From a bacterium (GTDB taxonomy: Bacteria > Patescibacteriota > Minisyncoccia > Minisyncoccales > JAGGXC01), in NCBI GenBank assembly GCA_021163265.1, contig JAGGXC010000001.1, positions 1 through 37,769 of the forward strand: 37,769 nt of DNA. The letters run 5' to 3'. Positions 1 through 15,748 of the stretch are shown piece after piece (position 1 is the first letter of the stretch; each line of letters opens with the position of its first letter). The notes beneath the pieces were generated by a model. That model was not told the DNA's origin. It searched no databases and saw nothing but the letters and a program-made list of their open reading frames with translations. The translations under genes were made by a program, and so were the position numbers.

Positions 1-314
1 GGTATTGCCAGTATTTCATCTCTCTGCAGTCTCTCTACATCCATTGAACGAAAAGCATACAGATTCCTTCTAAACTCAAAATAGAGTAAATCCCAATAAT
101 TTCCCTTCCTTATCCATAAAACAGGATTTGAAGATAAATTTCCTTTCATCTTAGCATACTCTTTTCCAAGTTTATCATGTTTTGTCCTCATAATAACTTT
201 GCATTCAGAACATCTCCATTCAACTGTTCTTGTTGTTTTTGTTTCAGAGACAATCTTACCTATAAAATATGTTTGACGATGACAAATAGGGCAATATATG
301 TTCTTAATCTTCAT
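1..314 (-). CDS. Zinc-ribbon protein, C-terminus runs off the left window edge (not in ORF track)
   Basis: Open minus-strand frame from ATG at 314 to the edge: MKIKNIYCPICHRQTYFIGKIVSETKTTRTVEWRCSECKVIMRTKHDKLGKEYAKMKGN...; CxxC...CxxC pairs; start overlaps the stop of the upstream ORF (304-306). Confidence 0.7.
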   Translation of the reverse strand, partial: MKIKNIYCPICHRQTYFIGKIVSETKTTRTVEWRCSECKVIMRTKHDKLGKEYAKMKGNLSSNPVLWIRKGNYWDLLYFEFRRNLYAFRSMDVERLQRDEILAI

Positions 315-546
315 ATTCTTGTTGATTTTCTATTAAAGTATAAAGTCTATACTTTATCTTCTTCAAAGCATCAATTAAAGAAACAACCTTTCTCTTAGTA
401 TTATTGTTTAAACCAAGTAATGCTAAAGCAGAACCTTTTATCATCTGATACTCTTCAAGCAAGGCTTTATACTCCTTTATCTTCTCATCACATATATCAA
501 CAATAGTATTCAACTCTTCTTCAAATGATTCAACTTCTTTCTCCAT
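304..546 (-). CDS. Small coiled-coil hypothetical protein
   Basis: ORF MEKEVESFEEELNTIVDICDEKIKEYKALLEEYQMIKG...; heptad-like Leu/Glu/Lys pattern; co-directional with neighbours. Confidence 0.5.
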   Translation of the reverse strand: MEKEVESFEEELNTIVDICDEKIKEYKALLEEYQMIKGSALALLGLNNNTKRKVVSLIDALKKIKYRLYTLIENQQEYED

Positions 547-661
547 ATTCAAAAAAAGATTAAAAAATCAAAACTCATAGAAGAAAATAAAGTAGCCAAA
601 GAAGCTTAATCTAGAAAAACTCCTTTGGCTACATATATTTAAAGAACACTCTTTGGAGGTT

Positions 662-889
662 TCACTGCTCATCTTCTATATATCTTGCTCTAAGTTCTCC
701 ATCCACCTTCTCGATAGTCTCCAGAATCTTTTCTACATCAACATTGGAATACTGTATCTCCCAACCATAACCACCTCTCTGACCACGACTCAAACAAACC
801 TTAAGTTCAGATGGCTGCTGCAAAGATACATGCTCATGACGAATAACCTGCTCAACATCTTTACTCATATCTTTCACCTTCTCTGCCAT
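662..889 (-). CDS. Hypothetical protein of mobile-element type
   Basis: ORF MAEKVKDMSKDVEQVIRHEHVSLQQPSELKVCLSRGQRGGYGWEIQYSNVDVEKIL...; overlaps the upstream ORF end, suggesting coupling. Confidence 0.6.
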   Translation of the reverse strand: MAEKVKDMSKDVEQVIRHEHVSLQQPSELKVCLSRGQRGGYGWEIQYSNVDVEKILETIEKVDGELRARYIEDEQ

Positions 890-1275
890 TTCTCATTCAA
901 CACCTCTATCTCCCGCAGCAAAAGATCTTTATTTCCATGTCTTGAAAGATCAATAAGCTCCTCAAGAATATCTGATGCCTCCTCCAAACTCAAATCATCA
1001 GGAATATTTTTCACCCCAAACCTATGCAATGTCTCCCTTTGCTTCCTAGTAGCCAATACACCATCAATCTTACAATTCCTCTCATCTCTATTTACCTGAT
1101 AATCCCTTCTTCTCATCTCAACGATCATCTCACTACGTAAATCCTTAGAAATCTCTTCAAACACTCTACCAGCAATATCTATACCATGCTCCGGCCACTT
1201 CCCAGATACCTTATACAAAATCCTTCCATACATCTCCAAATAAGAATCTATTCTTTCTTCTATCTCTTCATCCAT
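874..1275 (-). CDS. Hypothetical protein with C-terminal 'ATRKQRETLHRFGVKNIPDDLSLEEASDILEELI' motif
   Basis: Internal ATG at 1275 preceded by GGAGG (minus strand) preferred over the ORF-track start at 1338; this helical motif is often seen in element/phage recombination or ssDNA-related proteins. Confidence 0.6.
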   Translation of the reverse strand: MDEEIEERIDSYLEMYGRILYKVSGKWPEHGIDIAGRVFEEISKDLRSEMIVEMRRRDYQVNRDERNCKIDGVLATRKQRETLHRFGVKNIPDDLSLEEASDILEELIDLSRHGNKDLLLREIEVLNEKWQRR

Positions 1276-1375
1276 TCTACACAAACCTCCTCTTCGGTAG
1301 AGACAACCTAAAGGTTGCTCCACCAGCACAGCCCCCAAACTTTTCTTTGGAAGCTAGGCTCATAGAACAACCTTT

Positions 1376-1657
1376 TTACCCATCAAAAACCAGCCTCCAA
1401 CCATTATCATAAACCCAGAGTTGTTTTTTAACACATGAAGGAACCTTTAATCTCTTCAACCTCCTGATCTCTCTCTTGAACCTCCCTTTACCTGTTTTCA
1501 CCTGCACAAGCAAAACCTTCGACCTAGAAACAGCAACAATATCAAAAGGAGAACGAGAACCAGCTGAACGCAAAACCGTATGAAAAACCCTGTTTCTCCT
1601 TAACCTTCTAACTACCTCCAATTCCCTTAGATAACCTTTTTGATAAGAAGTAATCAT
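1376..1657 (-). CDS. PD-(D/E)XK nuclease, archaeal Holliday-junction-resolvase (Hjc)-like
   Basis: GYLRELEVVRRLRR...RSAGSRSPFDIVAVSRSKVLLVQVKTGKG: E...S..PFDIVA...QVK arrangement typical of Hjc-like nucleases; 4-nt overlap with the upstream ORF. Confidence 0.7.
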   Translation of the reverse strand: MITSYQKGYLRELEVVRRLRRNRVFHTVLRSAGSRSPFDIVAVSRSKVLLVQVKTGKGRFKREIRRLKRLKVPSCVKKQLWVYDNGWRLVFDG

Positions 1658-2331
1658 AACCTAAAAGTAGGATACAGTTTATCCAAGTAGAACTCCTGGA
1701 AAACATGCTCTCTCTTCCAGAGATTAATAATATTAGTTGACAAACAAACCGCTAGGGAATCACCAAGCCTCTGAGAATACTCTGAAGAAAGATACCAATC
1801 AATCAACTCCTTGATCTCCTCCACACCGTATTTCTTTAGCCTCTGCTTAACTAGTTTCCCATCCTTCGACCAGTTAACCTCAGGAACATAACCCTTTATC
1901 CTTCTAACCCTTGATATAAAATAAGAAACAATATCCCTAACAGAAGATGACTTTTTGTCATCCACTACAGTGTATATATTACTACTCTCTATTACTATAG
2001 GATCAGACACCCTTGTCTCCTCAAGAGAACCCCTATTTGTCTTCTCAGAAGTGGACAGATCTAAGGAAACCTTCCAGTCTGGTAGAAGATAACGATTATT
2101 TCTCCTAAGACCCACTCTTTTTATCCTCAAACCCGCTTTTTCTTTTAACTCCTTAATTGCTCTATCCACTGTTTTCACTGAAACACCTAAAACCTCAGCT
2201 ATATACTTCCTTGAAGGATAAGAAATAGATTCAGAATCCTTCATAGACCACAAAACCCCAGCAACAAGTTTCGCTCTAAAACCCAGGTCTCTTCTTTTAG
2301 CAATTAATTTAGGAATAGCCCAGAAACCCAT
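1654..2331 (-). CDS. Helix-turn-helix replication-initiator-like protein
   Basis: SYPSRKYIAEVLGVSVKTVDRAIKELKEKAGLRIKRVGLRRNNRYLLPD: wHTH of phage/plasmid replication-protein type; location in early operon. Confidence 0.6.
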   Translation of the reverse strand: MGFWAIPKLIAKRRDLGFRAKLVAGVLWSMKDSESISYPSRKYIAEVLGVSVKTVDRAIKELKEKAGLRIKRVGLRRNNRYLLPDWKVSLDLSTSEKTNRGSLEETRVSDPIVIESSNIYTVVDDKKSSSVRDIVSYFISRVRRIKGYVPEVNWSKDGKLVKQRLKKYGVEEIKELIDWYLSSEYSQRLGDSLAVCLSTNIINLWKREHVFQEFYLDKLYPTFRL

Positions 2332-2336
2332 AAAGA

Positions 2337-2672
2337 CTAATTAGATGTTTGAAATTGATTAATCCTTTGTCTCCTATCAACCCATTCCTTAAGATTCTTG
2401 TTTATACCAAACATTTGTCTATCAGGATTCCACTTAATTACTCCTCTCACCACCAAACCCTTCAGGATATCATCGACATGATAAGGCAAAATCCCTGCTA
2501 AGAAGAAATCTTTTTTATCAAAAACAGCAAAATCCCTGTTTAACCCAAAGGAAAACCTCATAATCAAAAGCAAAACCTTAAGCTCTCTCTTGGTAAAATT
2601 CGAGGTGATAATCTTATCTAATATTCTATTCTCAATATTAGTTGAAACCATAGTTTTTTTAGTAGATTTCAT
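2337..2672 (-). CDS. Winged-helix protein resembling phage replication protein O N-terminal domain
   Basis: SNFTKRELKVLLLIMRFSFGLNRDFAVFDKKDFFLAGILPYHVDDILKGLVVRGVIKWN. Confidence 0.55.
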   Translation of the reverse strand: MKSTKKTMVSTNIENRILDKIITSNFTKRELKVLLLIMRFSFGLNRDFAVFDKKDFFLAGILPYHVDDILKGLVVRGVIKWNPDRQMFGINKNLKEWVDRRQRINQFQTSN

Positions 2673-2823
2673 TAACCTTCCTTTTCAAAACATACTCAAC
2701 CAAAGCAAAAGCAAGAAGTCTAACATTTTTCCGTATCCTATCAATCTCTTCATCAGAAAGAGAAGGTTTCCTAAGAATCTCCCTATATTTATCATAGATT
2801 GAATTCCCTTTCTCCTTAGACAT
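2659..2823 (-). CDS. 54-aa hypothetical protein (below ORF-track cutoff)
   Basis: Frame read from ATG at 2823: MSKEKGNSIYDKYREILRKPSLSDEEIDRIRKNVRLLAFALVEYVLKRKVNEIY*; stop overlaps ATG of the 2337-2672 ORF; hydrophilic/helical, more plausible than the track ORF 2685-2867 in another frame. Confidence 0.6.
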   Translation of the reverse strand: MSKEKGNSIYDKYREILRKPSLSDEEIDRIRKNVRLLAFALVEYVLKRKVNEIY

Positions 2824-2844
2824 AAGACAAAATAGGGTAGTAGT

Positions 2845-3054
2845 CTATAGTAGAAAGACTTCTTCAACTCTTTCTCCCAAAACCTTAGCTATCTTTAAAG
2901 CTAGATAAACGTTTGGTATACGATTACCTGTTTCAATCTCAGATATCTCTGACTGGAAAACACCTACTTTCTCTGCTAAAACAGATTGCTTCATCCTCTT
3001 CTTATCCCTTAGTTCTTTTATTCTATTAGTTAGTCTCCACCATATTTCAATCAT
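2845..3054 (-). CDS. XRE-family (Cro/CI-like) HTH repressor
   Basis: NRIKELRDKKRMKQSVLAEKVGVFQSEISEIETGNRIPNVYLALKIAKVLGERVEEVFLL. Confidence 0.9.
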   Translation of the reverse strand: MIEIWWRLTNRIKELRDKKRMKQSVLAEKVGVFQSEISEIETGNRIPNVYLALKIAKVLGERVEEVFLL

Positions 3055-3059
3055 AAAAA

Positions 3060-3102
3060 TACGATATTACCTTAGATTATATCGTATAAACACGATTGTC
3101 AA
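3060..3102 (-). promoter_or_regulatory. Predicted sigma70-type promoter and operator of the XRE gene
   Basis: Minus strand TTGACA (3097-3102), 15-nt spacer, TATAAT (3076-3081); inverted repeat TACGATAT (3060-3067) / ATATCGTA (3079-3086) overlaps the -10. Confidence 0.65.
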
Positions 3103-3231
3103 GTGGAAAATTAGAGATTTATGATAAATTCTAGTTATAATTTCCAGAGAATATATTCTCTTGGTCTTTTAGAAAAATTTATTTATGAGAATTTTTATGT
3201 CGCCTCTTGAATCCACGAGGGAGAAAGGTAT

Positions 3232-3795
3232 ATGAAGATATCTAATCCAAAGGATATGATAGGTAAGTTGGTTACTGATTTTAACGGTGTAACCATTGGT
3301 GTTGTAGATAAGATTTGGAAGAGCTGGAACGAGGAGTACCCTGGGTGGTTTTTTGGCGTAAGACTAAACGAGGAAGTAAGAAACGCATGGTTTAGAGGTA
3401 CAACAAAACTTATACCAATATATAACGACTATATCCAGGATATTGCTGAACATATTATGCTTAATAAAACAGCTGAGCAACTCAGTCGTTATTTGAATAA
3501 AACAGTTTCTTGCAGCGATGCTGCTCATCCAATTGATCACCTCATGGACATGCCTGTTTATGATAGAAACAATTCCCGTGTTGGAACATTCTATGGTTGG
3601 GTCGAGAGTGACGGAATATACAAACACTATGGTTGCTTCGTAGATCCCTATCTATGTGATATCTGGGATATACCACATAATATCGTTATGCCACTCCAAC
3701 CTTCTATGATTCATCAAGTTTTTGATACGATTACTCTCAATAGAACCCTAAAGGAGCTCAGAGAGTATTGGCAACAATATTCTGAGAAACACTAA
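3232..3795 (+). CDS. Tandem PRC-barrel-like protein
   Basis: Two repeats (MIGKLVTDFNGVTIGVVDKIWKSW... and HLMDMPVYDRNNSRVGTFYGWVES...) resembling PRC-barrel domains. Confidence 0.55.
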   Translation: MKISNPKDMIGKLVTDFNGVTIGVVDKIWKSWNEEYPGWFFGVRLNEEVRNAWFRGTTKLIPIYNDYIQDIAEHIMLNKTAEQLSRYLNKTVSCSDAAHPIDHLMDMPVYDRNNSRVGTFYGWVESDGIYKHYGCFVDPYLCDIWDIPHNIVMPLQPSMIHQVFDTITLNRTLKELREYWQQYSEKH

Positions 3796-3796
3796 G

Positions 3797-3833
3797 GAGG
3801 AGTTTAAGGGAATAGCCGCATTCCCTACTCCTC
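3797..3833 (+). terminator. Strong bulged hairpin after PRC-like ORF, followed by C/T-rich tract
   Basis: GAGGAGT-TTA-AGGGAAT-agccgc-ATTCCCT-ACTCCTC: 14 bp with a 3-nt bulge, then tccctccctccatctccccccta. Confidence 0.5.
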
Positions 3834-4048
3834 TCCCTCCCTCCATCTCCCCCCTATTTTTGAGGGAGTAGATGATTTTGTGCAATAAAAGAATTTATGA
3901 ATCAGATGTTGATAATTTGATTAGAAGAAGAGCTAAAATATTTTAGGTAGTTACCATAAAACAGTGGGATTTATATCAGCAGAAGGTTTAGTAGAAATTA
4001 CACAAGTTATTGCAAAATTTCGATGATTTTATATAGGACCTAATTCTT

Positions 4049-5584
4049 ATGATAAAAGACCAATTGAAAGATAGGGATGGGATGAAGCTGAGATTGAATA
4101 ACGATGAGGATGTTGATTTGAGTTTAATCTTGGATTCGAAGTCTTTCCCTTCTTTTGTTACCTATATCTGTAGAGGTGATGGTAAATGGTCTCCTATCTA
4201 TGTAAGTAAGAATATTCTAGACTTTGGTTTCACTAGAGAGGAATTCTTGGAGAAAACCGATTTCTGGATTAATCATATACATCCAGATGATCAACAAAAG
4301 TTTCTAAATGAGCTATCTGATGTTTTTGAAAAAGGTTTTCATACCAGAGAATATAGAGTTTTAGATAAAAATGGTTGCTATAGATGGGTGAAAGATGAAC
4401 GTAGATTGATTTATGATGAAGATCGTAAAACCGATAGATATATTGGCTTCATATATGATATAACCAGGGAGAAAAAACTGGAGGAATCCCTACTTGAAGT
4501 TGAAAAACGATTTGAGGATATACTGTCGGTTTCTGCGGATTGGTTCTGGGAAGTTGATAAAAATGGAGTATATACTTTTGTAGCTGGTAAAGTCGAAGAA
4601 ATCCTTGGATATAAACCAGAGGAACTCATAGGTAAAACACCTTTTGATCTTATGCCGGAGGATGAAGCAAGACGAATAGAAGAGATATTCAAAAAAATTG
4701 CTGGCGAGAAAAAAAGGATTATGAACTTAGAAAATTGGAATATAACTAAACAAGGTAGAAGAATCTGCTTACTAACAAATGGAGTACCTCTATTGGATAG
4801 AGAAGGGAATCTAATAGGCTATAGAGGTGTAGATAAAGATGTTACTGATATTAAACTAGCGGAGATAGAGAGAAAAAATCAAGTCGAAAGGATCAAAAGA
4901 TATCAATCAGCTATTGTGAAGATATCAACTGATGAATCAATGATTGAAGGAAAATTTGATATCTTCTGTAAACATGTCACTGAAGTAATTGCCCATGCCA
5001 TGGATGTAGAACGAGTTAGTATATGGTTGTTAAATGATAAGCAAACTGAGTTGATATGTATCGACTTATATGAGAGAAGTAAGGATAAACATTCAAAAGA
5101 TATTACGCTTTCTGTAAATAATTATCCTAATTATTTCAATACTCTTCGAAACACTACAGCTATTGATGCAGAAGATGCGCTTAATGATGATAGAACCAAA
5201 GAATTTAAAGAAGATTATTTGATTCCACTAGGTATTGTTTCTATGCTTGATGCAACTATTAGAGTTCATGGCAAAACAAGAGGAGTTGTATGTCATGAAC
5301 ATATAGGAGAAAAAAGAAAGTGGTTACCCGATGAAATTATTTTTGCAGGTGAAGTCTCAGATCAAATTGCAAATGCTTTACTTACTTCTGAACGGATTTA
5401 TACTATAAAAGAGTTAGAGCAGAGAATGAAAGAACTTGAACTCTTTCAATCTTTTACTGAGGAAAGGGAACTTAAAATGATTGAATTAAAAAGAGAGATA
5501 AATGAGCTCTGCAAGAAATATGGAGAAAAACCTAGATATGAGATAACAGATGAGTTAAAGGAGGAGAAGGTGTTAAATCCTTGA
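4049..5584 (+). CDS. PAS-PAS-GAF sensor protein with C-terminal coiled coil, no kinase domain
   Basis: PAS/PAC signatures (FLEKTDFWINHIHPDDQQKF...YRVLDKNGCYRWVKDERRLIYDEDRKTDRYIGFIYDIT; SADWFWEVDKNGVYTFVAGKVEEILGYKPEELIGKTPFDLM), then GAF-like region (ATIRVHGKTRGVVCHEHIGEKRKWLPDEIIFAGEVSDQIANAL). Confidence 0.85.
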   Translation: MIKDQLKDRDGMKLRLNNDEDVDLSLILDSKSFPSFVTYICRGDGKWSPIYVSKNILDFGFTREEFLEKTDFWINHIHPDDQQKFLNELSDVFEKGFHTREYRVLDKNGCYRWVKDERRLIYDEDRKTDRYIGFIYDITREKKLEESLLEVEKRFEDILSVSADWFWEVDKNGVYTFVAGKVEEILGYKPEELIGKTPFDLMPEDEARRIEEIFKKIAGEKKRIMNLENWNITKQGRRICLLTNGVPLLDREGNLIGYRGVDKDVTDIKLAEIERKNQVERIKRYQSAIVKISTDESMIEGKFDIFCKHVTEVIAHAMDVERVSIWLLNDKQTELICIDLYERSKDKHSKDITLSVNNYPNYFNTLRNTTAIDAEDALNDDRTKEFKEDYLIPLGIVSMLDATIRVHGKTRGVVCHEHIGEKRKWLPDEIIFAGEVSDQIANALLTSERIYTIKELEQRMKELELFQSFTEERELKMIELKREINELCKKYGEKPRYEITDELKEEKVLNP

Positions 5585-5600
5585 TTTGGGGAGGGAAAAA

Positions 5601-6947
5601 ATGTTTATGGGAAAGTTAAAGATTGTTGTGCTGTTGGTTGTTATCGCAGCTGGTATATTATCTGGATGTACAACTCGAGAGGAATTGAATATACAGGAGG
5701 GGGATAATGGTGTACAACAAATGGGTCCGGTGTTTGTTGGATATGGCTGGAGTATAAAATCTGATCCTGTAGAAGCGGTAGCTGAGGCTGTTTCATCAGT
5801 AAAAACTCAGCTTAAGGATAAAACTCCTGATTATATCGTTCTTTTTTCAACTGTTGATTATAATTCAACGGTTATCCTTAGAGAGGTTTCTAAATATTTT
5901 CCAGAAGCACAGATATATGGTGGTACTTCATGTACCGGTGTGTTAACTAAAGATGGGTATCATACTAGTGGAAATGGTTCTCTAGCTTTATTAGCTGTTT
6001 CTTCTGAGAATATTAGTTTTGGTGTTGGTGGAGCAGAGATAGGAGATTCTGCTAGAACAGCCGGAGCAGAAGCTATCTCAGAGGCTATTGTAAATGCTGA
6101 GAGAAACAATGAAACACCTGATCTTGTTTTGATAACCGCTGCTCCTGGGAAAGAAGAAGAAATACTACTTGGAATAGAAGATGTAATTGGTAAAGACACA
6201 CCAATATTTGGTGGGAGTTCAGCGGATAATACCATAGAGGGATATTGGAAGCAATTTGCAAATAATAAAGTATACTCCAATGGTGTTAGTGTAACCGCTA
6301 TTTTCACTAATTTAAAAATTGGTTACTCATTTGAAGCAGGGTATCTAATAAGTGAACAAGAGGGAACTATCACCGAGGCAGAAGGTAGAACCATCTATAA
6401 AATCGATGATAAACCTGCTGCAGAGGTTTATAATGACTGGACTTCCGGGGAGGTTATTGGTGAAAATCATTCATCTACTGGAGAATTAATCATTCTCTCT
6501 CAATCTACTTTTTATCCATTATCTAAGAAACTAGTTGGTTCAAATGGAGAGATCCACTATCTTTCTATACATCCACTCTCGGTTAATTTCTCTGATAAAT
6601 CCCTTACAGTTTTCACTAACGTAGAAAGCGGAGAAACTATACAACTAATGCATGGAACCTGGGAGTTATTACTTAACCGAGGACACAGTACACCATCGAA
6701 AGCATTAGAATTCGGTGAAATCGATAAAGGTAAGGGTGCATTTGGTATCTATACTTTTTGCGCTGGAACACTCCTAGGTATACCTGAAAATGAGAGGTTT
6801 AAACTTCCTTTATTGGTTTATCAAACTATTGGTATACCTTTCATTGGAACTTTTACTTTTGGTGAGCAAGGTTATATCAGCGGCGTTGGAAATAGACATG
6901 GGAATCTTGTTAATTCTATGGTAATAATCGGTGAAGAAGAAAAATGA
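5601..6947 (+). CDS. FIST-domain (N and C) lipoprotein
   Basis: ATG 5601 with upstream GGGAGGG; signal peptide and lipobox IVVLLVVIAAGILSGC; FIST-like PEAQIYGGTSCTGVLTKDG...GKDTPIFGGSSADN...GIPFIGTFTFGEQGYIS. Confidence 0.8.
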   Translation: MFMGKLKIVVLLVVIAAGILSGCTTREELNIQEGDNGVQQMGPVFVGYGWSIKSDPVEAVAEAVSSVKTQLKDKTPDYIVLFSTVDYNSTVILREVSKYFPEAQIYGGTSCTGVLTKDGYHTSGNGSLALLAVSSENISFGVGGAEIGDSARTAGAEAISEAIVNAERNNETPDLVLITAAPGKEEEILLGIEDVIGKDTPIFGGSSADNTIEGYWKQFANNKVYSNGVSVTAIFTNLKIGYSFEAGYLISEQEGTITEAEGRTIYKIDDKPAAEVYNDWTSGEVIGENHSSTGELIILSQSTFYPLSKKLVGSNGEIHYLSIHPLSVNFSDKSLTVFTNVESGETIQLMHGTWELLLNRGHSTPSKALEFGEIDKGKGAFGIYTFCAGTLLGIPENERFKLPLLVYQTIGIPFIGTFTFGEQGYISGVGNRHGNLVNSMVIIGEEEK

Positions 6948-7089
6948 ACCACCTTTCTCATCTCCTCCAACGGGATTACGGGTTTAATATCGTAATGTTA
7001 AACCTCCTTAATTCTCTTATGTCTTTAAACCAAGAGGATTTCCATGAAACAAAGGCTGCTGAGATAACTTTAAGTTTGGTGAATAAGAG

Positions 7090-8817
7090 ATGAAATTGAA
7101 AAGCATGTTTCATAAAGTATTCCTCTACATGGTTCTTATATCCCTCATCGGCGGAGGAACCACCTTAGGTATATTAATTACCGGGCAAACTCTCACCATG
7201 GAAGAAAATATTATCCGAGAACATCTAGTAATCGCTGATATAGTCTCACAAACCATTGAAACAGGTTATTTCGCTGGTAGATGGCCTTTTGAAACACTTG
7301 AAGAAATAAAGAAAGGGGAAGACATTGTATTTTGGTGGGTGACAAAACCCGATGGTGAGATTGTATTAGCCGATAATCCCGATATGTGGGGAAAACAAGT
7401 GACTAATAATTTCTTATATTCAAATGAAACCATTGTTAGAGATACTGTATTCAGTGAAACTGGAGAGAATATCAAATTAATCGTTCGCCCCCTTAATATC
7501 AAAGAAGAAGGAAAAAACTGGATGTTTTGTATGGGAGTATCTCTTAAACCAATTTCTATGGCAAGAAATTCATTAATTCAAAATGGTATAGCCGTTCTTA
7601 TAGGAGTAGTCTTCTTAACAGTTGTATTCTCTCTCATCCTCAGTAGAAGTATCATCAAACCAATTCAACAGTTATCTAAAGCAACAATAACCATAGCAAA
7701 AGGAAACCTCGATCAACATGTAGAAGTAGAAAGTAACGGTGAAATCGGTTTACTAGCAAATAACTTCAACAAGATGATTCAAGAGTTAAAAAAATCCAAA
7801 ACTAAATTAGAAGAATACAACAAACTCCTTGAGAAAAAAGTAGAAGAACGTACAAAGGAACTTAGAATAGCTAAAGAAAAATTAGAAGAACATGTTGAAA
7901 AACTTGAGAGAAACAAAAAGATGCTACTCAACCTCATGCAGGATCTTAAAAATACAGTAGATAAACTAAAAACTACACAAGAAGAATTAAAACATAGAAA
8001 TAAAGAATTAGAAATAGCTCATAATAAACTAAAAGAGATGAACAGAGAACTTGATAGAAAAGTTAAAGAAAGAACTAGGGAGGTAGAAAAACTATTGGAA
8101 CAAAAAAACGAGTTTATCCATCAACTAGGTCATGACCTCAAAACCCCTTTGACACCTATGTTAACTCTTCTACCTATTATTCGTAGCCGTGTCGATGACC
8201 CTAAGACTCAAGAGTTGTTGGATATATTGGTTGAGAGTTCTTCTCATATGAAGGAGTTGGTTACTAAGACTCTGCAGCTTGCTCGTCTTAATTCCCCGAA
8301 TATGCAATTCCAGATTGAGGAGGTGAATCTGCGGGAGGAGATAAATAGTGCTTTGAAGAGGAATAAAACTATTCTCCAAGATTGTAATATGGAGGTTGAG
8401 AATCTTGTTAGAGAAGATATTTTAGTAATGGCAGATAAACTTCGTCTCGGTGAGTTATTGGATAATCTAATTAGTAATGCAGTAAAGTATACTCCTAATG
8501 GTGGTAGAATAACTATCACTGCGGATTACGAGGAAGATGAAGTTAAAATCGCTATTCAAGATACAGGTATAGGTATGACTAGAGAACAAATAGAACATAT
8601 CTTCGATGAATTCTATAAAGCAGATGAATCTAGACATGATCTGGATTCTAGTGGACTTGGATTAGCAATCTGCAAACGTATAGTAGAGAAACACGGTGGT
8701 AGAATATGGGCTGAAAGCCCTGGTAGAGGTAAAGGTTCAACTTTCTATTTTACTTTACCTTGTAGTAGTAATTTGGAAGGTAGAACCTGTGAGCCAGTTG
8801 CTTTTGCCAAGAAATGA
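7090..8817 (+). CDS. Sensor histidine kinase (TM, Cache-like extracytoplasmic domain, HAMP, coiled coil, HisKA, HATPase_c)
   Basis: QLGHDLKTPLTPML H-box; LGELLDNLISNAVKYTPNGG N-box; DTGIGM, SSGLGLAICKRIVEKHGGRIWAES G-boxes; two TM segments flank a ~130-aa domain. Confidence 0.95.
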   Translation: MKLKSMFHKVFLYMVLISLIGGGTTLGILITGQTLTMEENIIREHLVIADIVSQTIETGYFAGRWPFETLEEIKKGEDIVFWWVTKPDGEIVLADNPDMWGKQVTNNFLYSNETIVRDTVFSETGENIKLIVRPLNIKEEGKNWMFCMGVSLKPISMARNSLIQNGIAVLIGVVFLTVVFSLILSRSIIKPIQQLSKATITIAKGNLDQHVEVESNGEIGLLANNFNKMIQELKKSKTKLEEYNKLLEKKVEERTKELRIAKEKLEEHVEKLERNKKMLLNLMQDLKNTVDKLKTTQEELKHRNKELEIAHNKLKEMNRELDRKVKERTREVEKLLEQKNEFIHQLGHDLKTPLTPMLTLLPIIRSRVDDPKTQELLDILVESSSHMKELVTKTLQLARLNSPNMQFQIEEVNLREEINSALKRNKTILQDCNMEVENLVREDILVMADKLRLGELLDNLISNAVKYTPNGGRITITADYEEDEVKIAIQDTGIGMTREQIEHIFDEFYKADESRHDLDSSGLGLAICKRIVEKHGGRIWAESPGRGKGSTFYFTLPCSSNLEGRTCEPVAFAKK

Positions 8818-8858
8818 AATAGCTTTTGCTATTCCACTATATAATTGAGGGGATAGTG

Positions 8859-9254
8859 ATGGTAAAAATCATGGTTGTAGATGATAGCCGAGAGGTGTTG
8901 TTTTCTGTTGCAAGTAGCCTTAGGAAGCTAGATGAAAGTTATGAGGTTATAACAGCTGAGAATGGAAAGAAATGTTTAGAACTCCTGGAAGAAGAGACAC
9001 CAGATGCCATACTATTAGATATAATGATGCCCGGTATGAGCGGATGGGTAGTCTATGATAAAATACGTAGTAATCCAAAATGGGAGAGGATACCTATACT
9101 ATTCTTAACCGCTCGTACCGATAAACTTGCAGAGGAGGCTGGAAAATTCTTAGGTGAAGATTACATCGAGAAACCATTTGATCCAATTGACCTAAAAAAG
9201 AGAATTGAAAAAGCTATAGAAAAAAAGAGGAAAACAGGGGTGAGACAATATTAA
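8859..9254 (+). CDS. Single-domain response regulator (REC)
   Basis: MVKIMVVDDSREVL...PDAILLDIMMPGMSGW...PILFLTARTD...EDYIEKPFD; ATG 8859 with upstream GAGGGGATAG preferred over 8826. Confidence 0.93.
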   Translation: MVKIMVVDDSREVLFSVASSLRKLDESYEVITAENGKKCLELLEEETPDAILLDIMMPGMSGWVVYDKIRSNPKWERIPILFLTARTDKLAEEAGKFLGEDYIEKPFDPIDLKKRIEKAIEKKRKTGVRQY

Positions 9255-9642
9255 AAAGATTTTAATTGTTGATGACGAACCAATAATTATCGCTTCGATT
9301 AAGATAGCTTTAGAGGAAATAGGAGAAGATTATGAGATAATAGGTGCTAATAGTGGAGAGGAATGTTTCAAGCTGCTAGAGAAAGGAGAGAAACCAGATC
9401 TTATTTTATTGGACATCATGATGCCCGGTATGGATGGTTGGAAGGTACATGATAAACTTAAAGCTAAAGAATCACCTTATAATGATATACCCATTATTTT
9501 CTTAACAGCAGCGAATAACGAGGATTATCGAGAAGTAGGTACTTGGTTTGGAGAAGATTATATAGAGAAACCATTTGATATAATGGACCTCAAAAAGAGT
9601 ATAGATAGAGTGCTTGAGAGAAAGAATGAGAAGAAAAAATAG
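9250..9642 (+). CDS. Single-domain response regulator (REC), apparently ATT-initiated
   Basis: Complete REC domain only if read from ATT at 9250: IKKILIVDDEPIIIASIKIALEEIGEDYEIIGANSGEECFKLLEKGEKPDLILLDIMMPGMDGWKV...; in-frame TGA at 9241; SD-like AGGGGTGA at 9235-9242; ORF track truncates it to 9409. Confidence 0.85.
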   Translation: MKKILIVDDEPIIIASIKIALEEIGEDYEIIGANSGEECFKLLEKGEKPDLILLDIMMPGMDGWKVHDKLKAKESPYNDIPIIFLTAANNEDYREVGTWFGEDYIEKPFDIMDLKKSIDRVLERKNEKKK

Positions 9643-9800
9643 AAAATAAAATAGTTTAATAAAAGGGGATTTTCCTCAAACCATTTAAACTCTTTGGATT
9701 TCGATATATTAAATTTTAAAGGAAAGATATTATAAAGTTGGGAATTGATTAAGCTTAAATACTATTTATCCGAGATGAAAAAGGATTTCTAAGTTTAAGG

Positions 9801-11018
9801 ATGTGTGATTATCAGATGATAAAAGAAAAACATCCATTAAGAGGGGCTAAAGGTGGATGTACAGGTTTTATGGCTTCTAAGAATGATAAGGTTTTAGTTG
9901 CCAGCAATATCGATGCTTCTGTTGTTGACCCTAAACTTGAGGTTTATAAACCAGATGAATCAAAAGGAACCTATGGAAGAATACTTTTTCGATACTGGTA
10001 TGATTGCGTAGATTGTAGGTCAACAGGTGTAAATGAAAAAGGATTATGGTTTGATCGATATGATCATCAATTTTGGCCTCAGCTAAAAACTATTTTTAAG
10101 AAACCATATAAAAAACCAATGCAGTTAGAAGCATACTGCCTGAGCATATGTTCCACAGTTGAAGAAGTAAAAGAGGAGATGGAGAAATATAATCTTTTTC
10201 AGATGTCAAGGTATAATGCTTTCTTTGTTGATAAAACAGGGGATTGGGTGATCATAGAAGGTGATAACCTCTATCAAAAAGATGAATATAACAAGTATGG
10301 AATCAAGTATGCAGTAAGTACAAATTTTATACCATCTAAACCCAATCTTCCTTTTTCTAGATTAACCGGATGGGAACAAGGTAAATGGCGATATAGACTA
10401 GCAAGATATATGCTTCAAAATATGGATGAATCTCAATTCAATAGAGAATATTTTAGAAGCATATGTGAGGCAACCCATACTGATGTCACCAATTATTCCA
10501 ATGTTTGCGATCTCAAAAATGGAATAATCTATCTTTATCATTTCAAAGACTATGAAAAAGAAAGAGAAATAAAAATAAGAGAATATATCAAGAAAATCCC
10601 AGAGATTCAAGACCCAGAAAGCCCAATGATAATTAAGATACCATCACTATTTGAACCCAAAAATAATAAACCACCTGAGAAACCGGTTTTATATGGACCC
10701 ACTAAAGGAAAAATTGGACAGAGTTATGAATATTTCGCAGTTTCCAAAGATCCAGAGAAACATCAGATCTATTTTCTTTTTGATTGGGGTGATGGAACAA
10801 CAAGTAAAATCTGTAAAAAATGGATTGAACCTCTAAACAATATCACCTGTCAATTAAAACATAGATGGATAAAAAGCGGTGACTATAAAGTAAAAGTAAA
10901 AACACGAGATATCTATGGAAAAGAAAGCCCATGGTCAGATCCACTATATGTTGATATTCAAAAGAAGAAACATCCTCGTATCCTACCTCCAGAGTTAATA
11001 AAAAAAGGATTAAGATAA
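9801..11018 (+). CDS. Ntn-hydrolase (C45 / choloylglycine-hydrolase-like) fused to PKD-like domain
   Basis: GGCTGFMASKNDKVLVASNIDA (candidate nucleophile Cys); WVIIEGDNLYQ; C-terminal KPVLYGPTKGKIGQSYEYFAVSKDPEKHQIYFLFDWGDGTTS...KSGDYKVKVKTRDIYGKESPWSDPL. Confidence 0.7.
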   Translation: MCDYQMIKEKHPLRGAKGGCTGFMASKNDKVLVASNIDASVVDPKLEVYKPDESKGTYGRILFRYWYDCVDCRSTGVNEKGLWFDRYDHQFWPQLKTIFKKPYKKPMQLEAYCLSICSTVEEVKEEMEKYNLFQMSRYNAFFVDKTGDWVIIEGDNLYQKDEYNKYGIKYAVSTNFIPSKPNLPFSRLTGWEQGKWRYRLARYMLQNMDESQFNREYFRSICEATHTDVTNYSNVCDLKNGIIYLYHFKDYEKEREIKIREYIKKIPEIQDPESPMIIKIPSLFEPKNNKPPEKPVLYGPTKGKIGQSYEYFAVSKDPEKHQIYFLFDWGDGTTSKICKKWIEPLNNITCQLKHRWIKSGDYKVKVKTRDIYGKESPWSDPLYVDIQKKKHPRILPPELIKKGLR

Positions 11019-11026
11019 AAATAGGG

Positions 11027-12394
11027 TTATTTCTTCTTAGACCTATGATTGTATAGATAATCATAGATTAAAAACACAGTTAATCCTGTGACCCCTGCTG
11101 TTATCAGAATCTGGATATATATCAGAAACTCCTTAAAACCCTCAAGTATAGTTTTATTTATCTTGAGAAGTATATCCGGTAGCATACTAGATATATTTGT
11201 TGAGAAATTGATGGAGATATTTTCATAACCTACATTACCTGGTATGTAGATGGAAACAACACTTTTTTCTTTATTGGCGATATGGCGATAGATACAATCA
11301 TCTAATAATGTATTGTCTATTTTTAGGGTCATATTAAATCTTTTTTCTTTCCACCAATCTCCGAATAGTCTATGTTTTTCCTCATAAGGCTCGAGAAATA
11401 TTTTGATGATGCTTAAATTATCAAGATCTATTTGTAGTTCCTGTGGGAAATATTTTTTATAGAAAAAATTAAGCCTCGTGCTTTTATTTAAACTGAGATT
11501 ACAATTAAAAACAGTGATATCGCTACTAACCTCGCTGTTATATAACTTGTCAAGTAGATAGATTGCCCAAATAATACACCTATGATCAAAGAAAGGATTT
11601 TCAATACGGGATTCTAAGAATATTTCTCTAGCATGTTTTATTACGTTAAGAGTTATCTTAGTGTTAAATATGTTTTTCTCCAAAAATCTTTCATTCAAAT
11701 CTGCTGACTCAAGAGCATCATTTAGTCTATCTATGATATCTAATGATATATCTTCTCTCCATATACCTGGATATAATATCTTTATAGTTGTATTTAAAAT
11801 CTCAAATGTAAATGAGATGTTAACTAAAATCTCTCCTTCTTTGTTCTTCAATTGATCACGCCAGATGAAAGGTATTTCACAGTTATATAATCGAAAATAT
11901 ATACGTGGAGTAATCGAAGTACCAGGTTTTAACTCAAATACTCTCTCTACTTTTCTTTCAGGTTCACCAGATATGGATTCTGAAAAAACCTTATCTTTTT
12001 CTTCCCATGGAGGAATAAAAGAGACATCACCTATTCGTCGTTTACCATCTGATTTACTTTTGTAATAAATTTCTCCATCTACAAATCTATCCGTAGGGAT
12101 GATTAATCTTGTTGTGTTGTTTAGAAAACCAATGAACTGTTTCCTTGGATAGCTAATATTAATTTTTGCACTAATAACCGTATATGCCTCATCAGAGTTT
12201 TCATAATCTACATTCCAGTCAGAGATTTCACCAATAACAGGTTCAGGTAGTATCTGCCTGAGATTTTCTACTAAAATAAATGAAATCAAAAGAACTATAA
12301 TTAAAATTATTACCGCCGTTCTCCCCCTTATCTTCACAAAAGATAAATTGATACTATTTATATAAATTTGTTGTATTATATTCTGTGTATTCAA
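11027..12394 (-). CDS. Two-TM membrane protein with large extracytoplasmic domain, unknown function
   Basis: N-terminal TM RTAVIILIIVLLISFILV and C-terminal TM IYIQILITAGVTGLTVFLIYDYLY flank ~380 polar residues. Confidence 0.6.
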   Translation of the reverse strand: MNTQNIIQQIYINSINLSFVKIRGRTAVIILIIVLLISFILVENLRQILPEPVIGEISDWNVDYENSDEAYTVISAKINISYPRKQFIGFLNNTTRLIIPTDRFVDGEIYYKSKSDGKRRIGDVSFIPPWEEKDKVFSESISGEPERKVERVFELKPGTSITPRIYFRLYNCEIPFIWRDQLKNKEGEILVNISFTFEILNTTIKILYPGIWREDISLDIIDRLNDALESADLNERFLEKNIFNTKITLNVIKHAREIFLESRIENPFFDHRCIIWAIYLLDKLYNSEVSSDITVFNCNLSLNKSTRLNFFYKKYFPQELQIDLDNLSIIKIFLEPYEEKHRLFGDWWKEKRFNMTLKIDNTLLDDCIYRHIANKEKSVVSIYIPGNVGYENISINFSTNISSMLPDILLKINKTILEGFKEFLIYIQILITAGVTGLTVFLIYDYLYNHRSKKK

Positions 12395-12467
12395 ATTTGA
12401 ATTACTCCAAGGTCGAATGAATCTAAGGGGGATAAAAAGTAATGAGGAATAATTCTTATAGATTGGG

Positions 12468-12496
12468 TTGACAAAGATTTCTATCTTAGTTAATAT
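12468..12496 (+). promoter_or_regulatory. Predicted sigma70-type promoter for the XRE/ImmA-like pair
   Basis: TTGACA (12468-12473), 17-nt spacer, TAATAT (12491-12496); ATG at 12511 implies a very short leader. Confidence 0.6.
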
Positions 12497-12510
12497 CAGT
12501 TATAGATGAT

Positions 12511-12858
12511 ATGAAATTTGGAGAGAAACTAAGAAAAATTAGAGAAGAGAAAGGCATTACACAGCAAGAGTTAGCTGAAAAACTTGGATATGTAACCAAT
12601 AGCTATATTGCCGAGGTAGAGAAAGGAAAGTTTATCCCCTCAGAGAAGAAACTAAGGATGATAGCCAAAGCCCTAGGTGTTCCCTTTAGAGAACTTGATA
12701 GCCTTTTATTAGAAACAAAGATCGAAGAACTTGGAGTAAAGGAAACTGAGCTCATTAGCTTATTCAAGGATATCCCAAAACTACCCAAGGAGGATAAACA
12801 AGCTATCATCAAAGCCTATCTCTCCATCAAAAAAAGAAAGAAAAAACAGAAAACATGA
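12511..12858 (+). CDS. XRE-family HTH regulator (ImmR-like)
   Basis: MKFGEKLRKIREEKGITQQELAEKLGYVTNSYIAEVEKGKFIPSEKKLRMIAKALGVPF; overlaps next ORF. Confidence 0.9.
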   Translation: MKFGEKLRKIREEKGITQQELAEKLGYVTNSYIAEVEKGKFIPSEKKLRMIAKALGVPFRELDSLLLETKIEELGVKETELISLFKDIPKLPKEDKQAIIKAYLSIKKRKKKQKT

Positions 12859-13334
12859 GATGGATAATTGAAAAAGCCAATGAAATACGCAAAAAATATG
12901 GTTTAGATGACCTATATTTTGTTGCTGAGAAACTAGGAGCAAGAGTTGTCGAGCATCCCCTGGGTAGAATAATCAAGGAAGCCTATTTCAAAGACCTAAG
13001 AGTTATTGTCATTGACCCAAGTCTGCATCCATATAAAAAACGTCACCTCATCGCTCATGGTCTGGCTCATCATCTGTTCCACAGAAACAGGAAGGTAAAT
13101 TATTTTCTTGACCAAGGTAGGTGTTTCCTTAAAAACCTAGATGTTATACAACAAGAAAGAGAAGCAGAGGTTTTCGCAGCATACCTTCTCATACCAGAGG
13201 ACAAACTAAATATTCTTCTAAAAGAGGAATGGATAAAAGAATCCCTAGATCCAATACCTGAGCTGGCTGAAGAATTCCAAGTATCAGAACATTTCATGAA
13301 AAAGAGACTAGGATTTGAAAAAATGTTGAGATAA
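12855..13334 (+). CDS. ImmA/IrrE-like protein with altered active-site motif
   Basis: RVIVIDPSLHPYKKRHLIAHGLAHHLFHRN...REAEVFAAYLLIPEDKL: ImmA/IrrE arrangement with HGLAH in place of HExxH. Confidence 0.8.
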   Translation: MRWIIEKANEIRKKYGLDDLYFVAEKLGARVVEHPLGRIIKEAYFKDLRVIVIDPSLHPYKKRHLIAHGLAHHLFHRNRKVNYFLDQGRCFLKNLDVIQQEREAEVFAAYLLIPEDKLNILLKEEWIKESLDPIPELAEEFQVSEHFMKKRLGFEKMLR

Positions 13335-13387
13335 AGGATTTAAACCATGAATTCATAATTATCATACCTTTATTGGAGAGAAGATAC

Positions 13388-13993
13388 ATGAACAAAAACC
13401 TTAGGGAGTTTGTAGATAAGGAACACAGAGTGATGAGTGATTTTTATGACATATGTGAGAGATACAATGAGAGAAACAAGGCTTTAATAAAAAGAGAGCT
13501 GAGACAGTTGATTGAAGAGGATCCTGATTTTTTGGATCCCTATCTTTTTCTTTATCAGATACTGGAAGATGAAGGTAATCTCAAGGAGGCAGAAAAGATT
13601 TTAAACGAAGCATATAGGAGAGCAATAGCTTTGATAACAGACAAAGATGGAAGTTGGCCTGATATTTTGAAATGGGGTTGGCTGGAAAACAGGCATATTA
13701 TTAGAACTATTCTAAACAAAGCCTTGTCTCTCTGGAGAAATAATAAGATAGAAGAATCATTAGACTTATTTAGAAAACTTCTAAAAACAAACCCCAATGA
13801 TAATATTGGAGCAAGATTCTATATCCTGGCAATCAGGATGGGTATGAGCTTAGATGATTTTGAGGATCGTTTCAACAAAGGTGGCTACTATGATTCAGAG
13901 ATGATTGATTGGTTTGATAGAAACTACAAAGATTTCCTAGATGAGTTTAGCTGGTGGGAGAAAGCCATCGAGGAGGAAGAGTATATCTCATAA
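13388..13993 (+). CDS. TPR-like hypothetical protein
   Basis: LEDEGNLKEAEKILNEAYRRAI...LWRNNKIEESLDLFRKLLKTNPNDNIGARFY; ATG 13388 or 13373. Confidence 0.6.
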   Translation: MNKNLREFVDKEHRVMSDFYDICERYNERNKALIKRELRQLIEEDPDFLDPYLFLYQILEDEGNLKEAEKILNEAYRRAIALITDKDGSWPDILKWGWLENRHIIRTILNKALSLWRNNKIEESLDLFRKLLKTNPNDNIGARFYILAIRMGMSLDDFEDRFNKGGYYDSEMIDWFDRNYKDFLDEFSWWEKAIEEEEYIS

Positions 13994-14082
13994 GAGACAC
14001 CTCCTTGTTTTTTCTCCAACCAAGTTATATAATACCAAGATCACCAGCTAAAATCACTGACCAAATAATTTTTTAGAATTCC

Positions 14083-15603
14083 ATGAAAAACGCACTAGCT
14101 TATGCTAGAGTATCAACCAAAGAGCAGGCAGAGAAAGGACTCTCTATTCCTGCTCAACTAAAAGCAATAAGAGAGTATGCAAAATCTCATGATTTTTGTA
14201 TTCTTCAAGAATACACCGATCTTGGAGAATCAGCCAAAACCGCTAATAGACCCGGATTCAAAAAGATGATCAAAAGGTGTCAGAAAGATAAAACAATTGA
14301 TGCTGTTATCGTTCACAAAATAGACCGATTTTCTAGAAACAACATTGATTTCTTTGCCTACAAAGCTATCTTAAAAAAAGAAGGTATCAGACTCATATCG
14401 GCTTCAGAAAACATCGAAGAAACACCTTCTGGTGAGTTCATAGAAAATGTTTTAGTAGCAATGGCACAGTTTTACTCCTCCAACCTTGCTGAGGAAGTAC
14501 TTAAAGGTATGAAAGAAAAGTTTAGAAAAGGAGAATGGCCATATAAAGCACCTATTGGATATAAAAATATAAGAGATGAGAAGGGACATGCCTATATAGT
14601 TGAGGACAAAAAGACCTCCTATCTGATAAGGCAGATGTTTAAACTCTACGCCACCGGGCAATATTCCTTTGCTTCCTTGTCCGAAGAGATGGCAGAAAGA
14701 GGACTAAAAACAAAGTATGGTAAACACCTTTCACCTGAGAGAATAAAAAGCACCCTTACCAACCCCTTCTACATAGGTATACTAAGACTCTGGAACGAGA
14801 AAAGAAAAGGGAAACATAAACCATTAGTTGATGAAACACTTTTTAGACAAGTTCAAAATGTGATGAAAGAAAGAAAAATTACCCAAGATAGATGGCAAAA
14901 AAGAGATTTCCTTCTTAGAGGATTGCTTTACTGCCAAAATTGCAAAAGAAGATTAACCGCAGAGGTACATGAGAGAGGAAGCTACTACAGATGTCCATAC
15001 AATGTCAACAACCCAATATGTAAAGAACCATATATCCCCACAAAACACCTTGAATCTCAAATTGAAAAACTATATAATCTAATGGAACCCACACCAAGGC
15101 TTCTTAAAATCCTTAAAGCAGAGATTGAGGAGGTTCAAAACAATTTCAAGGCGAAATCTTCAAACGAGATACAGAATCTCAAAAGAAGAATCAGGGAAAA
15201 TGAAGCAAAGATGGACACCCTTGTTGATAACCTTGCTACCAAGACAATTACCCCAGAGATTTACAAGAAATACAGCCAAAGATATGAAAAAGAAATCAAA
15301 GAAGCAAGAGATAGACTAGCAGTATTAGAGAAAGATTATAGCAGAAACTTTGATTTCATCGATAAATGCATGATACTAGCATCAACCCTATCTAAGCTAC
15401 ACAAAATATTCAGCTTCCAGCAGAAAAAGAAACTTGCTAAAGCTCTCTTTAGAAGAATCTGGGTGAAAAACAAAGAAATCAAAAGGATAGAGCTTAACCC
15501 ACCATTTGATTTCCTACTTAGAAATCAGACCAGAAAAATTCATAAAGTTTTTCCGAATCTTGTATTCGAACATTATCCCATTAAGTCCACCCAGCCGCGG
15601 TAG
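14083..15603 (+). CDS. Large serine recombinase/integrase (Resolvase + Recombinase + zinc-ribbon + coiled coil)
   Basis: ALAYARVSTKEQAEKGLSIPAQLKAIREYA...DAVIVHKIDRFSRN...PIGYKN...LLRGLLYCQNCKRRLTAEVHERGSYYRCPYN. Confidence 0.95.
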   Translation: MKNALAYARVSTKEQAEKGLSIPAQLKAIREYAKSHDFCILQEYTDLGESAKTANRPGFKKMIKRCQKDKTIDAVIVHKIDRFSRNNIDFFAYKAILKKEGIRLISASENIEETPSGEFIENVLVAMAQFYSSNLAEEVLKGMKEKFRKGEWPYKAPIGYKNIRDEKGHAYIVEDKKTSYLIRQMFKLYATGQYSFASLSEEMAERGLKTKYGKHLSPERIKSTLTNPFYIGILRLWNEKRKGKHKPLVDETLFRQVQNVMKERKITQDRWQKRDFLLRGLLYCQNCKRRLTAEVHERGSYYRCPYNVNNPICKEPYIPTKHLESQIEKLYNLMEPTPRLLKILKAEIEEVQNNFKAKSSNEIQNLKRRIRENEAKMDTLVDNLATKTITPEIYKKYSQRYEKEIKEARDRLAVLEKDYSRNFDFIDKCMILASTLSKLHKIFSFQQKKKLAKALFRRIWVKNKEIKRIELNPPFDFLLRNQTRKIHKVFPNLVFEHYPIKSTQPR

Positions 15604-15666
15604 CTCAGGCAGTAGAGCGCAGCTCTGAAAAAGCTGAGGTCACCAGTGCAAGTCTGGTCCGCGGCA
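15594..15666 (+). tRNA. tRNA-Phe(GAA)
   Basis: GCCGCGG-TA-GCTC-AGGCAGTA-GAGC-G-CAGCT-CTGAAAA-AGCTG-AGGTC-ACCAG-TGCAAGT-CTGGT-CCGCGGC-A; full cloverleaf with unusual D/T loops. Confidence 0.85.
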
Positions 15667-15673
15667 CAAATAA

Positions 15674-15748
15674 GCGGGAGTAGTTCAGTGGTAGAACGTC
15701 TCGTTGCCAACGAGAAGATCGCGGGTTCGAATCCCGTCTCCCGCTCCA
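15674..15748 (+). tRNA. tRNA-Gly(GCC)
   Basis: GCGGGAG...TCTCG-TTGCCAA-CGAGA...GCGGG-TTCGAAT-CCCGT-CTCCCGC-T-CCA. Confidence 0.95.

Follow-up and report, generated by a model that had tools for sequence, protein, structure and literature searches.

The window analyzed here, all 37,769 nucleotides of contig JAGGXC010000001.1, is one whole contig (C14) of a 674-kb genome, which is placed by its size, kinship, and gene content in the Candidate Phyla Radiation (CPR; Patescibacteria), is assembled in 30 contigs, is estimated to be 94% complete and 0.1% contaminated, and has relatives of 0.4-1.2 Mb spread over dozens of families within one order. Host genes for tRNA-Phe and tRNA-Gly(gcc) (15594..15748, plus strand) form the right flank of an insertion, and positions 1..15593 are identified as the right part of an integrated element from an empty site in a same-genus relative (G001), a reciprocal junction on contig C7 of the same genome, and a foreign tetranucleotide signature; the left part lies on C7 (2574-8930) and on contig C10. 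The first-pass annotation of the window had proposed a serine-recombinase-bounded element with archaeal cargo in a CPR-like chromosome, and this is borne out by the empty site, the reciprocal junction, and the phylogeny of the FIST protein. Gene calls agree that housekeeping genes are absent left of tRNA-Phe and that core genes lie to its right (IF-2, RbfA-like, tRNAs), and domain calls recover the repressor, the replication-type winged helix-turn-helix (wHTH) proteins, FIST, a histidine kinase (HK), two response-regulator receivers (REC), XRE with M78/ImmA, and the large serine recombinase.

In G001, the genes for tRNA-Ala(ggc), tRNA-Phe, and tRNA-Gly are adjacent and represent the empty site. 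In the window, the tRNA-Phe/tRNA-Gly pair starts at 15594, directly after the serine recombinase, while tRNA-Ala is found on C7 (2498-2574) with the upstream neighbors it has in G001 (HtrA, tRNA-Arg, and tRNA-His), followed downstream by 6.3 kb of foreign DNA that is not in G001. The left end of the element, sought outside the window, is thereby located on C7 and extends into C10. As one bond in G001 corresponds to two complementary junctions in this genome, a chimeric contig is very unlikely, and the suspected misassembly at 15.6 kb is, on the strength of the empty site and the reciprocal junction on C7, a real integration junction. The right junction reads TCCCATTAAGTCCACC, an attR-like half site (15576..15591, plus strand) that is identical to the tRNA-Ala 3' end at 13/16 positions, and the left junction reads TCCCACTGGGTCCACC; they have the core GTCCACC in common, and 0.04 matches as good as that between the att half sites are expected by chance in the window. 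Both arms of the attP reconstructed for this serine-recombinase junction carry TTCGAACATT, and a palindromic TTCGAA appears to lie about equidistant from the core on either side. The locus therefore has what marks an element of a large serine recombinase, namely, an occupied site with attL and attR and an empty attB in a relative. C7 and C10 overlap exactly over 127 bp, with a single ATPase open reading frame (ORF) reading through the overlap, and the sum of 6.35 kb (C7), 4.5 kb (C10), and 15.6 kb (window) gives an element of at least about 26 kb. The tetranucleotide signature turns from host-like to archaeal-like at both junctions; as some host stretches dip too, it is taken as supporting evidence.

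The large serine recombinase (14083..15603, plus strand) is a full-length protein of 506 amino acids (aa), and the stop codon of its gene falls within tRNA-Phe. Its Resolvase, Recombinase, and zinc-ribbon domains all score above the Pfam cut-off, and it has a PHROG integrase match at 1.8e-101. It is preceded by an XRE regulator and ImmA-like M78 protease pair (12511..13334, plus strand; 70% and 77% aa identity to CPR bin G048), which probably controls excision, and by a TPR protein (13373..13993, plus strand; 67% aa and 73% DNA identity to Thermoplasmatota genome G061). The nearest relative of the XRE-ImmA-X-recombinase unit is in G048, with another gene X: on its contig L096 (624-1640), XRE-ImmA is followed by a variable gene and then the recombinase, the variable gene being TPR in the window and one for a 338-aa protein of unknown function in G048. 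Archaeal bin G504 holds a sequence that matches the N terminus of the recombinase at 79% and has archaeal genes on both sides, and the assignment of the recombinase as plainly CPR was dropped after this match. In that bin (L183, 2139-2471), these neighbors are archaeal isoprenoid genes, and the start of the recombinase gives way to a stretch of N. The earlier argument that sigma-70-like promoters point to function in a bacterial host did not survive, since 46 such sites were found against 55 +/- 8 in shuffled sequence, which is not above chance.

The cargo that led to an archaeal assignment is a run of sensory genes on the plus strand. It comprises a PRC-barrel-type protein (3232..3795; 96% aa identity to L042), a PAS-PAS-GAF sensor (4049..5584; Pfam; 97% aa to L042), a FIST sensor lipoprotein (5586..6947; Pfam), a HAMP histidine kinase (7090..8817; Pfam; 98.6% aa to L042 over 284 shared residues), and two REC proteins, the second N-terminally truncated (8826..9642; 49-58% aa to archaeal contig G060:C90). 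L042 (QMTB01000122) is a 5-kb contig binned in a Thermoplasmata metagenome-assembled genome (MAG), with a Guaymas provenance read from its scaffold name, B44_G15. Over window positions 3107-7943 (PRC-PAS/GAF-FIST-HK), the two are 97% identical in DNA; L042 includes, in addition, 107 bp of the rep_O gene, and the segment 2605-3106, which contains the repressor, is missing from it. With a synonymous divergence (dS) of about 0.06 and a ratio of nonsynonymous to synonymous divergence (dN/dS) of 0.13-0.27, the copies would have split recently under purifying selection. Further relatives of PRC, HK, and TPR, with 68-86% identity in DNA, are present in the MAG of L042, and on other archaeal contigs FIST-HK stands beside archaeal core genes such as aIF2-alpha-like and Rad50/Mre11, named by reading ORFs. 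The PRC-barrel assignment of the first-pass annotation holds indirectly, as the window protein is below threshold and its 61-64% identical homologues in the MAG of L042 pass the PRC cut-off.

Phylogeny groups the window FIST with L042 and other Thermoplasmatota (100/99, 96/92, and 95/90), and a 100/100 split sets this clade apart from the native CPR FIST family. When checked for nesting among CPR sequences, the FIST cargo is thus placed within Thermoplasmatota, far from its CPR counterparts. Archaeal-type REC-FIST-HK genes are also present in another CPR genome (G099, L145/L185), where FIST has 48% aa identity and branches beside the archaeal FIST clade (99/97); from its position in the tree, this appears to be a separate exchange with archaea.

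Two further genes follow the sensory run. A CBAH/C45 hydrolase-like protein with a PKD-like C terminus (9801..11018, plus strand) has a 36% full-length homologue in archaeon G464, directly upstream of a remnant of the C-terminal part of an integrase gene, int(C). The PKD domain named in the first-pass annotation is itself below threshold, and it is the whole CBAH/C45-PKD protein that links this gene to archaea. Next to it is a membrane-anchored protein of unknown function (11027..12394, minus strand) with a weak archaeal homologue (25%, 4.8e-7).

The part of the element on C7 and C10 shows that the foreign DNA is not merely sensory: the earlier view of archaeal sensory cargo was right about the sensory genes, and integrase, attP, histone, and exonuclease VII large subunit (XseA) are archaeal too. 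From the tRNA-Ala side, the genes encode a beta-propeller lipoprotein, an archaeal histone, a truncated XseA, and a tyrosine integrase, followed by an unknown gene, a VirD4-like coupling ATPase, a membrane protein, and a STAND-type NTPase. The histone (L008:4101-4310) scores 90.7 bits with the NCBIfam model archaea_histone against a curated cut-off of 50. Matches in Thermoplasmatota reach 76% for XseA, 58% for the histone, and 53-66% for the tyrosine integrase across many genomes (66% aa to G452).

Within the tyrosine integrase gene lies a 44-bp attP (C7:6708-6751) that agrees at 43/44 positions with the tRNA-Gly(GCC) gene of archaeon G452, in its 3' half. An integrated element of 5.9 kb in G452 has these 44 bp on both sides; one of its ends carries int(C) and the other the N-terminal part, int(N). 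Among the CPR contigs examined, no attP-like stretch was found elsewhere as an ungapped match at 31/44 or better. In archaeal elements of the Sulfolobus spindle-shaped virus (SSV) type, attP lies within the integrase gene, which becomes split when the element inserts into a tRNA gene. The element resembles these in its archaeal-type tyrosine integrase with an internal tRNA-Gly-like attP matching a tRNA 3' half, and the homologues in Thermoplasmatota are split there and flank integrated DNA (G452 and G466). It differs in that the integrase gene is an unsplit ORF of 343 aa on C7, the host is bacterial, and the insertion is elsewhere, at the serine-recombinase junction. As the gene is intact, this copy was not integrated by the archaeal integrase and is not an SSV-type integration. 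Insertion by the tyrosine integrase into the host tRNA-Gly(gcc), 80 bp from the junction, was likewise considered and rejected: attP matches that gene at best at 31/41, gaps included, the integrase gene is whole, and the insertion point falls between tRNA-Ala and tRNA-Phe.

The coupling ATPase is of another affinity. Its family was found in 122/122 CPR genomes searched (up to 45% identity) and in 5/79 archaeal ones (up to 41%), which agrees with the report that VirD4 homologues are near-universal in Patescibacteria (PMC12102498), and a search of IMG/VR with it returned one distant contig. The presence of this CPR-universal family makes the element a mosaic. Of relaxase, VirB4, and coupling protein, the components expected of integrative and conjugative elements, a coupling-protein-like ATPase was the only one found in the parts read, which are C7, C10, and the window, on either side of the gap between C10 and C14.

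Taken together, the empty site, the reciprocal junctions, the archaeal ancestry of most genes, the intact integrase with its archaeal attP, and the serine recombinase at the right junction make it very probable, as judged by sequence, that an element spanning about 26 kb or more, a mosaic largely of Thermoplasmatota origin, is integrated between tRNA-Ala and tRNA-Phe of a CPR chromosome. It appears to be an archaeal-derived mosaic and not an element of bacterial descent with archaeal genes added, because its archaeal parts include the tyrosine integrase, attP, histone, and XseA of the element itself. Several points weigh against this view: no sequence links C10 to position 1 of the window, the junctions are known from assembled contigs, and the empty site is seen in one genome, G001. 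In addition, the replication module is without close relatives, the recombinase has as its nearest relatives two fragmentary sequences, one from a CPR bin and the other from an archaeal bin, and L042 is a 5-kb contig whose binning is provisional.

An assembly chimera or misbinning, in which Thermoplasmata contigs were joined to CPR contigs and the bacterium has no archaeal DNA, would account for the 97% identical DNA on an archaeal-binned contig and for the archaeal-like signature of the island, and it gains from the evidence being limited to assembled contigs. We nevertheless consider it very improbable, as it requires two independent hybrid contigs whose breaks fall on either side of a single bond, unbroken in G001, and at an att-like core; moreover, the CPR-type coupling ATPase is on the same contig, C7, as archaeal genes, and a 92% copy of the zinc-ribbon gene lies among host core contigs. 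Somewhat less improbable, though still unlikely, is a native CPR serine-recombinase element that gathered archaeal genes stepwise, with a bacterial backbone and archaeal ancestry in the cargo alone. The universality of the coupling ATPase family in CPR, the relative of the XRE-ImmA-X-recombinase unit with a different gene X in a CPR bin, and the frequency of large serine recombinases among CPR relatives are all consistent with it, whereas a backbone that holds an intact archaeal tyrosine integrase with an archaeal attP, a histone, and XseA, the linkage of rep_O to the cargo on L042 too, and the 79%-alike recombinase N terminus in archaeal bin G504 argue otherwise. That these are ordinary, vertically inherited CPR genes that merely look archaeal has next to no probability: FIST and HK/REC genes are present in some CPR genomes, yet the idea is refuted by the FIST tree and by the absence of the island from G001, as well as by the 97% DNA identity to an archaeal-binned contig and the integrase and XseA matches.

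The course proposed for such an archaeal-derived mosaic is as follows. In archaea, it would integrate into tRNA-Gly through the tyrosine integrase, splitting the int gene. On the simplest reading, a circular copy with attP unused probably reached a CPR cell, by conjugation-like transfer, as a VirD4-like ATPase of CPR kind is aboard, or by uptake of DNA from an archaeal partner. The serine recombinase would then have joined its attP to the tRNA-Ala/tRNA-Phe junction, as its position, its domain type, and the short core suggest, and the PRC-PAS/GAF-FIST-HK-REC genes would be an archaeal sensory operon carried along. It can be speculated, although this is less likely than not, that the element is a shuttle between two domains: the tyrosine integrase would serve archaeal tRNA-Gly and the serine integrase the bacterial tRNA-Ala/tRNA-Phe site, and the element would have moved repeatedly between Thermoplasmatota and the Patescibacteria living with them, so that the CPR and L042 copies (dS about 0.06, dN/dS about 0.2) belong to one recently exchanged population.

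Bacterial elements with large serine recombinases (genomic islands, prophages, and integrative and mobilizable elements) share with this one a recombinase at one end, a short common core, nearby regulators, and a site in a tRNA cluster; here, a second integrase of archaeal type, an archaeal histone, and archaeal sensory cargo are added, and the core length is deduced from sequence. Patescibacteria live on methanogens (PMC9600506, PMC9763046, and PMC10936435), and exchange of single genes between Patescibacteria and archaea is on record (PMC12455944). Physical contact of this kind would provide a route for transfer, although the known hosts are methanogens and the known transfers single genes, while the Thermoplasmatota partner here is deduced from DNA. 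We found no description of an integrated archaeal element in a CPR chromosome in the open-access literature; the parts are each of a known kind, and the combination is new. Transfer between domains is mostly inferred from single-gene trees, whereas here the vehicle is still readable, in the form of an archaeal integrase with its archaeal attP, the two junctions of a bacterial site, and an archaeal-binned relative that is nearly identical. As a passage of a mobile element between domains, the case would be unusually clear and recent, and it would place a histone gene of archaeal type and a sensory operon from archaea in a reduced bacterial genome. It also suggests that a Patescibacterium and an archaeon of the Thermoplasmatota were in contact. 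To our knowledge, such a host relationship has not been shown before. The case makes it testable whether the integrases used by one mobile element can differ between the two domains.

The left end of the window carries a replication module on the minus strand. It includes two small genes of unknown function without close homologues (662..1338), a nuclease (1376..1657), a replication-initiator-like wHTH protein (1654..2331; HTH_36 at 3.5e-9, PHROG replication initiation at 1.8e-13), a protein similar to the N terminus of phage replication protein O (Phage_rep_O; 2337..2672; Pfam 1.1e-14), of which the 107 bp lie at the end of L042. The XRE repressor (2845..3054, minus strand) is found beside it, within the segment 2605-3106. 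The nuclease, first annotated as Hjc-like, scores below the Pfam cut-off and is placed no more closely than in the PD-(D/E)XK type. No close homologue of the module was detected in 384 CPR or 80 Thermoplasmatota genomes, a limited negative because queries were concatenated and two candidate stretches were scored per genome; scans of IMG/VR with the replication protein, the PRC protein, and the tyrosine integrase gave no relatives, and phage records gave no match to the replication protein. GC skew is about -0.4 to -0.5 over positions 662-2672, far beyond the remaining window.

Ahead of this module is a zinc-ribbon gene frameshifted into two ORFs (3..552, minus strand). A second copy of this region (window 1-648; 91-92% identity) lies at C15:17271-17563 and C24:2-468, among host core contigs; C15 and C24 overlap by 113 bp at this copy, which spans their junction. 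An unplaced 3.2-kb contig of this genome, C11 (L012), with ParB-like and ABC-ATPase genes and an archaeal-like tetranucleotide score, may belong to the element. In G001, an archaeal-type TFIIB gene (PF00382, 157.7 bits; L088, 3375-4325, minus strand) directly follows the same tRNA-Phe/tRNA-Gly pair; it is not at the corresponding spot in the window and may mark another gain of archaeal DNA, the second, in this tRNA cluster.

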